A stretch of 41,106 bases of DNA from Bacteroidia bacterium (GTDB taxonomy: Bacteria > Bacteroidota > Bacteroidia > Cytophagales > Flammeovirgaceae): NCBI GenBank assembly GCA_030425505.1, contig JAUIAB010000024.1, positions 1 to 41,106 on the forward strand. The letters are read 5' to 3'. Made by a program: the position numbers and the translations under genes. The notes beneath the pieces were generated by a model. The model did not search any database. It was not told the origin of the DNA and saw only the letters and a list, made by a program, of their open reading frames with translations. This document shows, one piece after another, positions 35,030 through 39,164 of this stretch (position 1 is the first letter of the stretch; every line of letters begins with the position of its first letter).

Positions 35030-36610
35030 ATGGATGCTATAGGTTCTTTTTTTAGACATCTATTTGATACAAGTAGTTTTCCTCCAAGGTGGTCATGTGG
35101 AAAATGGTCTGACTTTCATGGTTGGCTTTATATTCTGTCAGACATATCTATTTTTTTGGCATACTATGCAATACCTCTGATCCTTCTTTATTATCTCATC
35201 AAAATAAAAAGTGTCCCTTTTAGACCTGTTTTTTTTCTATTTGTTGCTTTTATTTTTTTGTGCGGAGCAACTCATCTAATAGAAGCCATCATTTTTTGGT
35301 ATCCCCACTATAGGATAAGTGCTCTTGCAAAGCTTTTGACGGCAGTAGTTTCTTGGATAACTGTTTTTGCTCTTGTAAAAAATCTACCCAGAGCATTAAA
35401 AGCAAAAACACCTAAGGAGTTACAGAAAACTATTGACGAGAAAACGAAAGAGTTACAGTTAATTAATGAAAGCCTGGAAAAAAGTGAAAGACAGTTTAAA
35501 GCGCTAGTAAATGAGAATCCCGATATTATATTACGCTTCAACAAAGAATATAAAATTGATTTCGCAAATAAATCAGCCAAAGAACTTTCCCAGTTGATCA
35601 AAAAACACTCAGATAAAAGCACTATTCAAGAGCACTTTAAACTTTTGAGAAATAAAGTTGAAGAGGTATTTAACGAAAAAAAAGAAACACATAGTTATCA
35701 TGATGAGCTTTTGATAGGCGAAAAAATAAAAAAATACTTGAGTATTTCTCTTATTCCAGTTAAAAGCTTTGATGGTTTAAGCAATAAAGTGATAGCTGTA
35801 GGTAGAGACATAACCAGTGAGATAGAGTATGAAAAACTTCTTGAAAATAGAGTTAAGGAACTCCAAGCATTATCTGGTAAAATGGTAAATAAACTAGACA
35901 AGCTAAATAGCTTTGCTAGAATAGTTTCTCATAACCTGAGGTCTCCAGTTGGAAATTTAGATGCATTATGTAGCTTGTATAAAGAAAGTAGTGACAAAGA
36001 AGAAAAAAATATTATTCTGGAAAAAGTAGAGAAGGTGATTTCTAATCTACAGAATACAATTTCTGATCTTACAGAAATTGTTAAAATAAATGAAAGTGAA
36101 GATAGAATACCAAAAGAAAACCTGATTCTTGAAAAGATACTAAATAATGTGCTAGTAAGCTTAGTAGCAGAAATTGAAGAGGCAAAAGCAAAAATTAATT
36201 GTGATTTTTCTGAAGTACCTCAAATAATGTATCCTAGAGCATATCTTGAAAGTATTTTTCTTAACCTTATTACAAATTCTATAAAGTATAGATCTTTAAA
36301 AAGAAATTTAAACGTAGAACTAAAGTCTATAAGAGATAGAGGTTACATAGTACTTACATGCCAAGACAATGGAGTAGGAATAGACCTGAAAAAATATGGA
36401 GATAAAGTATTTGGTTTAAACCAAACTTTTCATACAAATAACGATGCCAGAGGGGTGGGTTTATTTATCACCAAAAACCAAATAGAGTCTATGGGAGGAA
36501 GCATTACCGTAGAGAGTGAGCCAGATGTAGGTACTAAATTTATCATCAAATTTCTGGACTTAAAAGAGAAAGATATTGAAGAGCAGTCTTCCGATAAAAG
36601 CGAAAAGTAG
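35030..36610 (+). CDS. Histidine kinase with an ethylene-receptor-like membrane sensor and a PAS domain
   Basis: A 526-residue membrane histidine kinase. Residues about 33-117 form three membrane helices that match the plant ETR1 ethylene-binding domain: D38, Y45, I48 and P49 (in DISIFLAYYAIP) and C78/H82 (in LCGATHLIE) sit at a constant offset of 13 from ETR1 D25, Y32, I35, P36, C65 and H69. LTAVVSWITVFALVKNLP also resembles the third ETR1 helix. In ETR1 the Cys and His bind Cu(I), which binds ethylene. A PAS domain (about 155-262), a HisKA phosphoacceptor H301 (SHNLRSPVGNL) and an ATPase domain (NLITNSIKYRS; CQDNGVGI; ARGVGLFITK; GGSITVESEPDVGTKF) follow. No receiver domain or adjacent response regulator is present. 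It converges on the channel gene, only 12 bases from its stop. Confidence 0.85.
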   Translation: MDAIGSFFRHLFDTSSFPPRWSCGKWSDFHGWLYILSDISIFLAYYAIPLILLYYLIKIKSVPFRPVFFLFVAFIFLCGATHLIEAIIFWYPHYRISALAKLLTAVVSWITVFALVKNLPRALKAKTPKELQKTIDEKTKELQLINESLEKSERQFKALVNENPDIILRFNKEYKIDFANKSAKELSQLIKKHSDKSTIQEHFKLLRNKVEEVFNEKKETHSYHDELLIGEKIKKYLSISLIPVKSFDGLSNKVIAVGRDITSEIEYEKLLENRVKELQALSGKMVNKLDKLNSFARIVSHNLRSPVGNLDALCSLYKESSDKEEKNIILEKVEKVISNLQNTISDLTEIVKINESEDRIPKENLILEKILNNVLVSLVAEIEEAKAKINCDFSEVPQIMYPRAYLESIFLNLITNSIKYRSLKRNLNVELKSIRDRGYIVLTCQDNGVGIDLKKYGDKVFGLNQTFHTNNDARGVGLFITKNQIESMGGSITVESEPDVGTKFIIKFLDLKEKDIEEQSSDKSEK

Positions 36611-36622
36611 TCAATTCCCACC

Positions 36623-37891
36623 CTAGACATTATTCTTTTTAGACCTCGACTCAGCCTCTTCTCTAATTAAAGCAGCAACCTTAGGATAAGAAGACATAAT
36701 CCTATCAAAGTGAAATCGTTTTAGGTAATACAAATCACAAAAAGTTACTGCTTTTACAGAATAATTGTGCATCCGGCTTTCTACGAGGGCAATCTCACCA
36801 AAAAAATCACCTTTCTCCAAGATACCAATAGGTTGCTTTCTATCCAAAACCTCTAACTTCCCTTTTACTACAAAAAATAACTCTTCAGCATGATCATTTT
36901 TCTTGAATATAAAATCTCCTGGAGTGGCAATCATAGGCTTGAGATGCATAGCAACTTCCTTTACAAAGCTCTTTTCCGTATTCTTAAAAATGGGTATTTT
37001 CTCAACAACTTCTTTTTTTAAATGAATAGCTACCTCTTTTTGGAGTCCCTCTGGTAAATTTTCGAGAAAAGATATTTCGTTGAACCCCATCCTCTTTTTC
37101 CACAAATAAGTATAGTAGTCACGTAGCTTGATATGTAGCTTTTTAGGTAATCTTCTATAGTTTATCAAGGCGGAAAGCCTTTCAATATTATTTTGATACT
37201 CAACCTTTGCTGGATCACCTTTAGTAACAATAGCAGTAATATTTGCAATAACATAACCGTATAGTCCCACCCCCATTAGCTGAATGAAAATAGTAAAAAT
37301 CATCTGGTCATTACTTTTGGGTACAATATCTCCATACCCAATAGTAGTGAGCGTAGTTACACTCCAATAGAGCGCTTGCGTATAATTAGTGGCAAGATCT
37401 AGTCCATAGTCAATATCCCTTATTTTGAGCCAAAAGCAGCTGACCCAGTGTGAGAAATGAACAATCCAAAAGATAAAAAAAGCTAAAGACAAGGTATTGC
37501 TAAGGTGAATTTCCTGTCTTTTAAACTCACCCATATATTGATTTACCTTAATGATTTTTACCAACCTGATTAGCCCAAAAAGAGGAGTGCCAAAAATCAA
37601 ATCCCAAGGTGGAATGACAATAATGTCAACCCAAAGTTTATTCTTCAAATAAGAGCGAATAGAAGTACCACTCCAAATAGAAAACTCTGAGCTTTTTTTA
37701 TTGCACCTCCAGACAGAATAGAAGATATCCAAGAAATAAATAATAGAAATAAGAAGCTCTAAGTACTGAAATAAAGCGAGGTCTTTTTTAAGCGAAAAAA
37801 TAGAGTTTAGAGGAATGAAAATAGCTAAAAAACTTGTAGAAAGAATTACAATAATTTCCCATAAATACTCATACACACTTTTTTGTAACAC
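36623..37891 (-). CDS. Six-helix potassium channel with C-terminal cyclic-nucleotide-binding-like domain
   Basis: A 422-residue channel of the eukaryote-like CNG/HCN/KAT topology. Helices S1-S4 lie at about 10-120, with an S4-like segment containing R109, K112 and K115 at three-residue spacing. The pore helix and selectivity filter TTIGYGD (182-188) indicate K+ selectivity. S6 is about 195-225. A C-linker (about 225-295) leads to a CNBD-like domain (about 297-410). The phosphate-binding cassette has GEIALVES at 365-372, but the expected Arg-Ser/Thr-Ala is replaced by H375-N376-Y377, so cyclic nucleotide binding is doubtful. It starts at a GTG (37891), 4 bases after the TGA of the CHASE2 gene, implying translational coupling. 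Prokaryotic relatives such as SthK exist. Gating signal unknown. Confidence 0.88.
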   Translation of the reverse strand: MLQKSVYEYLWEIIVILSTSFLAIFIPLNSIFSLKKDLALFQYLELLISIIYFLDIFYSVWRCNKKSSEFSIWSGTSIRSYLKNKLWVDIIVIPPWDLIFGTPLFGLIRLVKIIKVNQYMGEFKRQEIHLSNTLSLAFFIFWIVHFSHWVSCFWLKIRDIDYGLDLATNYTQALYWSVTTLTTIGYGDIVPKSNDQMIFTIFIQLMGVGLYGYVIANITAIVTKGDPAKVEYQNNIERLSALINYRRLPKKLHIKLRDYYTYLWKKRMGFNEISFLENLPEGLQKEVAIHLKKEVVEKIPIFKNTEKSFVKEVAMHLKPMIATPGDFIFKKNDHAEELFFVVKGKLEVLDRKQPIGILEKGDFFGEIALVESRMHNYSVKAVTFCDLYYLKRFHFDRIMSSYPKVAALIREEAESRSKKNNV

Positions 37892-37895
37892 AGAA

Positions 37896-39164
37896 TCAGG
37901 AAGTTTTTAGTTTCTTAAGCTTTCTCTTATACAAGAAAAATAACCCTTTTTCTAAAAAAGACATATAAAATGATAGAAAAAGAATAGTCAAGTGAATATT
38001 AAATAAGAAATAAGATAATACAGACACAAAACCAAAATAACCCAGGTAAAAAGTAACATCCATAAAAAACTGTAAGACACTATTTTTATTAGGAAACTTT
38101 CTTTCTAAAAACCTGGTGACAGGGTCTTTAACCGTTAAAGCCTTGTAAGAGATAATTGTAAAAAAGACAAACAAGAATAAAATAAAGAAAATAGAGACTT
38201 TATTATAGCTATTTTTAAGACATAAATAAGCGTTAAGTAGAATAATAGGACCAGGCATAGGACCATAAATAGTTTTGTGGATATCTGTATTTTCAAAATC
38301 TCCAATCATAATGATTCTATCTTGAAAATAATCATTAACAATATCCAATAAAATATCATCGGGGATACTCATCAAATCAGACAATTGGTAATAAGGATAC
38401 TTTTTCTTTACAAAAAGATCATACGGTCGTACAGGGTGATCCATAATAAAAGAATCAAAAATCACATTGCCATTCAACTCATCAAACAAACTTCCTCTGA
38501 CAATAGTATCCTTATGGATCTGCTCATACATTAACAAAGGAGTAGTTTTAAGACTGTCATTTTGGATAATATGATACTTCAAAATCATATCATCTTGCAT
38601 TTGTCCAAGCATATCAGACAAACCCAAAGGAGCATCAAAAATGGGATACTCGGGCTTGTGATTAGCGTCTTTATGATATGATACTAAGCAGTTTTTAACT
38701 TTTTTTAGCTCATTACTCAAAAGAGAATCGTCCTCAGACTCTAAATAAAACCGTATATCAATAACCAAAAACTTGTAAGGTTTAGACATCTTATTAAAAG
38801 CCCAAACCAGCTTACCTAAAGACTTCCTATTCGTAATATCTATATAGCCAATTGGAAATCCGTTATTGTCATACTTTGGAATCAGCTGTTTCTCCCATGC
38901 CACATTAATAAAAGCCAGACTATCTTTGGGAGGCTTAATTTGCTTTCCAAAAAGAATATTTTTAACACCAGAAGTTACTTCGATCAAAGCAACCTCATCA
39001 TTCAATGTAAAAGGTAATCTCAGATAGATTAGCGTAACAATCAGTAGAGCAATTGCATGCAAAATGGAAACAAGCCACCTTTTCCCTTCTTTTTTTTGTA
39101 ATAGTATCAAAACTGAAGCGCAATAAATACAATAAAAAGTAAAAATAATAATAAAACAGGGCAT
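37896..39164 (-). CDS. Stand-alone CHASE2 sensor protein (no output domain)
   Basis: A 422-residue membrane protein. An N-terminal hydrophobic pair of segments (about 5-21 and 31-48) precedes a large extracytoplasmic CHASE2-like domain (about 75-300): FINVAWEKQLIP, KSLGKLVWAFNK, KFLVIDIRF, DLMSIPDD, DYFQDRIIMIGDFENTDIHKTIYGPMPGPIILLNAYL. Three membrane helices follow (about 303-322, 357-375, 382-400), and the protein ends in a Lys-rich cytoplasmic tail. CHASE2 domains usually feed kinase, cyclase or other catalytic modules; none is present, so this would be a pure sensor. The next gene, 4 bases away, is an ion channel, its likely partner. The start at ATG 39164 is uncertain because the upstream DNA is an unusual GC-rich element; a later TTG could be the true start. 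Confidence 0.8.
   Translation of the reverse strand: MPCFIIIFTFYCIYCASVLILLQKKEGKRWLVSILHAIALLIVTLIYLRLPFTLNDEVALIEVTSGVKNILFGKQIKPPKDSLAFINVAWEKQLIPKYDNNGFPIGYIDITNRKSLGKLVWAFNKMSKPYKFLVIDIRFYLESEDDSLLSNELKKVKNCLVSYHKDANHKPEYPIFDAPLGLSDMLGQMQDDMILKYHIIQNDSLKTTPLLMYEQIHKDTIVRGSLFDELNGNVIFDSFIMDHPVRPYDLFVKKKYPYYQLSDLMSIPDDILLDIVNDYFQDRIIMIGDFENTDIHKTIYGPMPGPIILLNAYLCLKNSYNKVSIFFILFLFVFFTIISYKALTVKDPVTRFLERKFPNKNSVLQFFMDVTFYLGYFGFVSVLSYFLFNIHLTILFLSFYMSFLEKGLFFLYKRKLKKLKTS

Follow-up and report, generated by a model that had tools for sequence, protein, structure and literature searches.

A predicted fused ETR1-type ethylene receptor and a putative split receptor encoded by one Bacteroidota genome

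The window, by which we mean the whole 41,106-nucleotide stretch of DNA that was analysed, carries on its forward strand an open reading frame with an ATG start (35030-36610, +) encoding a protein of 526 amino acids. Its domains follow the order ethylene-binding domain (EBD), coil, PAS, HisKA and HATPase_c. The EBD covers residues 30-124 (35117-35401, +) and was recognized by the Pfam family ETR1_N (PF25487) with E=1.8e-32 and 111.9 bits against a cut-off of 27. An AlphaFold2 model of the region (mean pLDDT 85.2, pTM 0.63) places three membrane helices at residues 28-58, 65-88 and 94-123, in agreement with the hydropathy peaks, followed by a long signalling helix or coil at residues 128-162 (35411-35515, +). 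No solved structure of an EBD that matches by sequence was found, and a Foldseek search with the model gave 0 PDB matches at E<=0.001; the fold assignment thus rests on the sequence family and the model.

The remainder of the chain comprises a PAS domain (PAS_4, residues 163-264; 35516-35821, +), a HisKA domain (residues 292-355; 35903-36094, +) with the phospho-acceptor H301, and an HATPase_c domain (residues 406-510; 36245-36559, +). The original prediction had assigned a PAS-HisKA-HATPase output. HATPase_c is indeed above its Pfam cut-off (E=8.4e-17) and the kinase boxes are present, whereas HisKA (23.8 bits against 26.9) falls just below its cut-off and PAS_4 (17.7 bits against 23.1) also stays under its own. 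The H box SHNLRSP (residues 300-306) contains H301, the N box NLITNSIKYR spans residues 412-421, and the G boxes DNGVGI and GVGLFI occupy residues 446-451 and 475-480. HATPase_c, H301 and the N and G boxes place a histidine kinase transmitter on the same chain as the EBD. As had been predicted, no GAF domain was found among Pfam matches up to E=0.01, and no receiver domain was matched either. In this the protein differs from plant ETR1, which carries both GAF and receiver domains. Among the 25 NCBIfam models listed, of 62 matched, none reached its cut-off. The PHROGs matches of the protein concern its kinase half, the longest beginning at residue 114, and the stand-alone EBD described below had no match in phages or PHROGs; a phage origin was therefore rejected.

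We then aligned the EBD with that of ETR1. The numbering of the ETR1 sequence used here agrees with the residues named in PMC6586836. The seven essential residues of plant ETR1, D25, Y32, I35, P36, I62, C65 and H69, correspond to D38, Y45, I48, P49, I75, C78 and H82 of the window protein, with a constant offset of 13 and no gap from D25 through H69. Six of these positions had been called correctly from the sequence, and the seventh (I75) is present as well. The accompanying claim that the first 117 residues match ETR1 was generous in its extent, as the profile match covers residues 30-124; the BLAST match to the Azospirillum receptor AzoEtr1 begins at residue 11. In helix 3 the offset drops from 13 to 10, so that K91, S98 and P110 of ETR1 equal K101, S108 and P120, and where ETR1 has the C4/C6 pair the window protein has a single N-terminal cysteine, C23. 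According to PMC6586836 and PMC11819568, the Cu(I) of ETR1 is held by C65 and H69, with D25 helping to place H69, while S98 and P110 have a part in output. By alignment the corresponding residues are D38 (35141-35143, +) and the presumed Cu(I) ligands C78 (35261-35263, +) and H82 (35273-35275, +).

None of 14 well-known control genomes contained an ETR1_N match, so the match in the window is not due to chance. ETR1_N was the best Pfam match, 85 bits over its cut-off, rather than an unrelated membrane family, and in the tree the window domain sits in a clade of EBDs with a support of 99. Pfam score, controls and residue alignment together rule out chance or an unrelated membrane family; a family merely resembling the EBD, for which we found no point in favour, has next to no probability. 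The assignment of an ETR1-type EBD to this reading frame was thus borne out by both profile and tree.

On one flank the receptor gene is preceded by an FtsX-like permease gene 43 bp upstream. On the other flank lies, on the opposite strand and convergent with it, a cNMP-gated potassium-channel-like gene with Ion_trans and cyclic-nucleotide-binding domains (36623-37891, -), followed by a gene for a membrane protein (37896-39164, -) whose one Pfam match, to CHASE2, is weak and stays under its cut-off (E=5.5e-05). This neighbourhood is not conserved, since the fused relatives L009 and L017 have different neighbours. Using two regulators as phmmer queries at E<=0.01, we found no receiver-like frame in the whole window, and phmmer at the same threshold found none in the 10 kb around L009 and L017 (stretches L180 and L181).

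The closest described counterpart is AzoEtr1 of Azospirillum brasilense, a protein of 525 amino acids with an EBD-PAS-kinase layout, described without a GAF domain, for which 14C-ethylene binding has been shown; it has the seven residues, and a response-regulator gene is adjacent (PMC11819568). A plasmid of A. brasilense was found to carry the gene (L159:3480-5057, 525 aa), and the first eight residues of its product fit our reading of the primer printed in PMC11819568. The window protein resembles AzoEtr1 in length (526 against 525 aa), in the succession of an EBD with all seven residues, PAS and kinase, and in its non-photosynthetic host. The two EBDs are 42.5% identical over 113 residues, and the whole proteins 24% over 513 alignment columns. 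They differ in the N-terminal lead-in, which reads PPRWxCGxW..FHGWLY in the window protein and PHGxCxxW in AzoEtr1. In contrast to AzoEtr1, which has a response-regulator reading frame just downstream (L159:4975-5457), the window gene has none beside it, and an AzoEtr1-like pair was not found. SynEtr1 (slr1212) of Synechocystis, which we compared by its description, likewise combines an EBD with a histidine kinase and a phosphorelay (PMC11819568, PMC7700396), but has a light-sensing GAF domain (PMC7700396) that the window protein lacks; to judge by AzoEtr1, a GAF domain does not define the bacterial receptors. Many proteobacteria and cyanobacteria possess EBD proteins, whose outputs vary widely (PMC7700396). 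Given AzoEtr1 and this wide spread, the window gene belongs to an already known receptor type. It is ordinary for its family, and the type has been shown to function in another non-photosynthetic bacterium. Of the suggestion that the protein senses ethylene or another small ligand, the domain and the ligand class are well supported, whereas the novelty that it implied for a GAF-less protein of a non-photosynthetic bacterium is not.

How would such a receptor work? As a dimer, the window protein would hold one Cu(I) per protomer, with C78 and H82 as its ligands. Binding of ethylene, or of a similar small alkene, to the copper would shift helix 3, and this shift, passed on through the coil, would lower or raise autophosphorylation of H301. 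Ethylene inhibits the kinase of ETR1, and indirect evidence points to such inhibition in SynEtr1 too (PMC11819568). From H301 the phosphate would pass to a response regulator, which we place elsewhere in the genome because none was found in the window; more speculatively, the regulator of the second locus described below may be a shared target. Copper could be supplied by a Cu-type P1B ATPase found in this genome (E=1.9e-187), although 13 of the 14 control genomes also have a match above that cut-off. Taken jointly with this mechanism and with the split second receptor, it is probable from the sequence that the window encodes a fused ethylene receptor of the ETR1 type with an EBD-PAS-kinase layout.

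The likely ligand class, which is well supported, is thus a small molecule such as ethylene at a predicted Cu(I) site; copper and ethylene binding by the window protein itself would follow from the conserved residues. A genuine Cu(I) site whose natural ligand is another alkene or alkyne, CO or copper itself, making the protein a copper or gas sensor, is a less likely though still appreciable alternative. In plants the seven residues define a copper-ethylene site, yet the names of several carriers of related domains (Belliella aquatica, Aquiflexum lacus, Maribacter sedimenticola) hint at aquatic or sediment habitats, in which exposure to plant ethylene is uncertain, and some relatives of the window EBD have N or S in place of D25. 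Against this, AzoEtr1 and SynEtr1 bind or respond to ethylene with the same residues (PMC11819568, PMC6682694), and ethylene is the sole ligand named for the EBD in the available parts of the cited literature.

We aligned 150 EBDs, made up of 135 rows (aligned together with ETR1), L037, L099 and 13 lower-scoring matches; the 135 rows leave out L003 (duplicate of L001), L013 (below the cut-off), L016 (ambiguous letters), L023 and L130 (in-frame stop), L037 and L099. All seven residues are kept in 125 of the 150. Another 10 differ at a single site, namely I35L in L006, L044, L059 and L080, D25N in L009, L017, L022, L024 and L029, and D25S in L010, and one further row (L099) has C65S. The 14 degenerate, lower-scoring EBDs (L143-L155 and L037) have each lost several residues: C65 is lost in 13 (kept in L153) and P36 in 13 (kept in L155), both together in 12, while H69 is kept in 13. 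Because 78 of the 135 rows were picked with the motif CGx[TS]H, only the other 57 test C65 and H69 without that bias. In these rows, for which the Pfam profile was the sole criterion, C65 and H69 occur in 57/57 and all seven residues in 48/57; they are mostly high-scoring, and L037, which lacks C65, is placed among the degenerate ones.

The fused relatives L009, L017 and L029, 51-54% identical to the window EBD, carry N at D25, and together with D25S in L010 this indicates that the site is not invariant among the relatives of the window EBD. It could be argued that the kinase signals mainly through the PAS-like domain lying between EBD and kinase, the EBD being left as a relic membrane anchor, and the substitution of D25 in several relatives would fit such a loss of function. 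We consider this improbable, as the window protein keeps the seven residues as well as the counterparts of S98 and P110, whereas in decayed EBD-like domains P36 and C65 are both lost in 12 of 14. To judge from the alignment, selection seems to have kept the full residue set of the window protein, with D25 relaxed in some fused relatives.

Several unusual EBDs were seen in the course of this comparison. L143-L149, all of one genus (g264, family f13), carry ETR1_N-like domains on frames of 426-483 aa in which H69 is kept and C65, P36 and D25 (to E) are lost, perhaps representing a repurposed, copper-less domain. L022 and L024, from two genomes of the same phylum, have a D25N EBD on 1567-aa frames without the N-terminal cysteine lead-in. 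In Fibrella rubiginis (L023, L130) an otherwise normal EBD kinase gene has a TGA stop inside helix 1, at a position where several relatives have Trp, indicating either a broken gene or a sequencing error.

A second ETR1_N match of the same genome lies outside the window, at G000:C19, in a locus of three genes that we refer to as L003 (5958-8363). Here the EBD is a separate protein of 159 amino acids (L003:7884-8363, -; ETR1_N E=9.4e-36) with a tail of about 35 residues that gives weak coiled-coil matches. Beginning 4 bases after it is the gene for a membrane histidine kinase of 494 amino acids (L003:6395-7879, -; listed with a TTG start), and this is followed by a receiver-only response regulator of 143 amino acids (L003:5958-6389, -). 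At its N-terminus this kinase carries a membrane domain of its own, with four helices in the model, followed by PAS_3, HisKA and HATPase_c. No Pfam family matched this membrane domain in the three kinases scanned. Structural comparison with VIA-align returned only matches typical of helical bundles, the best of which (Z 9.6) was a designed protein; the similarity to ImcA (8wcn; Z 7.2 across 125 residues) amounts to no more than a lead. The split EBD belongs to the same HGWLY clade as the window EBD, but stands in L003 as a separate protein without a kinase. The two EBDs are 55% identical, and thus are not recent copies of each other.

From gene order and co-occurrence we infer that the EBD protein and the separate kinase form one signalling complex, in which the EBD protein would most likely be the ligand-binding subunit, attached through the membrane and its coiled tail. 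The organism would accordingly possess a split receptor in addition to a conventional fused one. On the evidence set out below we lean towards a split ethylene receptor of Bacteroidota, in which a stand-alone copper- and ethylene-binding EBD would control a four-helix membrane kinase and its regulator in trans.

The same arrangement recurred in other Bacteroidota. We scanned named genomes and obtained at least 592 pattern matches, of which at least 381 were confirmed because they resembled the EBD-only protein of L003, and the best 80 were kept. These include 25 in-frame stand-alone EBDs (L063-L084, L088, L091, L127), leaving out L130 with its in-frame stop and L126, a fused gene with a broken frame. 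In 24 of the 25 loci the next gene matched the membrane domain of the L003 kinase, the weakest matches being L088 (1.3e-6, with a broken kinase frame) and L091 (1.3e-7); as the loci are the best 80 of at least 381, picked by likeness to a stand-alone EBD, this proportion is no measure of how frequent split receptors are. A matching regulator is third in 18 of these 24 loci; it is missing in L070, L071, L088 and L091, and L064 and L074 end at a contig edge. The operon is compact. With each kinase start set mechanically at the first start codon in the vicinity of the EBD stop, the two genes overlap by 1 or 4 nt in 19 of the 23 loci examined and are separated by gaps of 3, 9, 10 and 41 in the other four. 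Carriers are found in the Cyclobacteriaceae, Marivirgaceae, Reichenbachiellaceae, Chryseotaleaceae, Flavobacteriaceae, Crocinitomicaceae and among unplaced Bacteroidota, and their genera include Algoriphagus, Maribacter and Marivirga.

In the tree (137 rows, with the 13 lower-scoring matches and L037 dropped; few columns and a quick search) all 36 split EBD rows fall into one clade with an SH-aLRT of 86, implying one change, although 10 of them pair at zero distance with others, so that the 36 rows amount to about 26 independent genomes. The fused EBD of the window lies outside this clade and inside the same HGWLY clade. All seven binding-site residues are found in 34 of the 36 split rows, the exceptions being L059 and L080 with I35L, which are at zero distance from each other.

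We also approached the association from the kinase side. For this the membrane domain of the partner was turned into a profile (A2; 18 rows), which was built from EBD-adjacent kinases and is biased toward them. It was run on the 390 genomes of the order, scoring at most 10 first-look candidates per genome. A match was obtained in 17 of these genomes, 12 strong (E<=6.7e-40) and 5 weak (E 5.2e-7 to 3.9e-4). Every one of the 12 strong matches adjoins a stand-alone EBD on the same contig and strand, the two domains being 108-178 bases apart. The hypergeometric chance of such linkage, calculated with 15 short EBD frames, is 2e-20, a value that serves only as a guide because of the biased profile, the candidate limit and the relatedness of the genomes. 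Among those 15 frames, G486:C252 was rejected as a stand-alone EBD, being a fused gene truncated by the contig end, and L039 and G750 are without the partner. A natural fusion of an EBD to the partner membrane domain was found in 0 of 2660 frames. No partner kinase was found beside the stand-alone EBDs L039, L127 and L178 (G750), so standing alone is by itself no proof of a split system. The stand-alone EBD of L178 (2708-3337), a protein of 209 aa, belongs to the PHGH type; it retains CxxxH, has a tail that looks coiled, and is unlike the split type.

According to PMC10452086, in every ethylene receptor described a single protein carries the binding domain and, after it, a cytosolic domain. 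If true, a split receptor would break this one-protein rule. We found no description of a stand-alone EBD with a separate kinase in the literature searched, which covered titles and the starts of abstracts, and the split form goes unmentioned in the available parts of PMC11819568, PMC7700396, PMC6944256, PMC6682694, PMC6586836, PMC10452086 and PMC4422448. The split operon is less expected and less ordinary than the window gene, which adds one more bacterium to a known receptor type. If the operon works as proposed, the EBD would be uncoupled from the kinase, and the step leading from binding to control could be dissected and rebuilt from separate proteins.

Counting genomes, with the own genome included each time, ETR1_N scored above its cut-off in 10 of the 58 genomes of the search among relatives, in 84 of 390 from the order to which the window belongs and in 22 of 392 genomes of a phylum sample. 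We take this order to be Cytophagales, since L048, which comes from a genome of the order, is at zero distance in the tree from L065 (Algoriphagus lacus). Together with the window gene, these counts suggest that sensing of the ethylene type may be widespread among Bacteroidota, and raise the question of what role ethylene or a related gas plays there. In the named-genome scan, 76 of the best 80 of at least 381 confirmed stretches were titled Bacteroidota, and the remaining four were from Planctomycetes (L104, L128, L134) and Ignavibacteria (L118). The three Planctomycete stretches, two of them titled Gemmataceae, have frames of 948-1609 aa with an HGWLY EBD of the type seen in Bacteroidota, possibly as a result of horizontal transfer.
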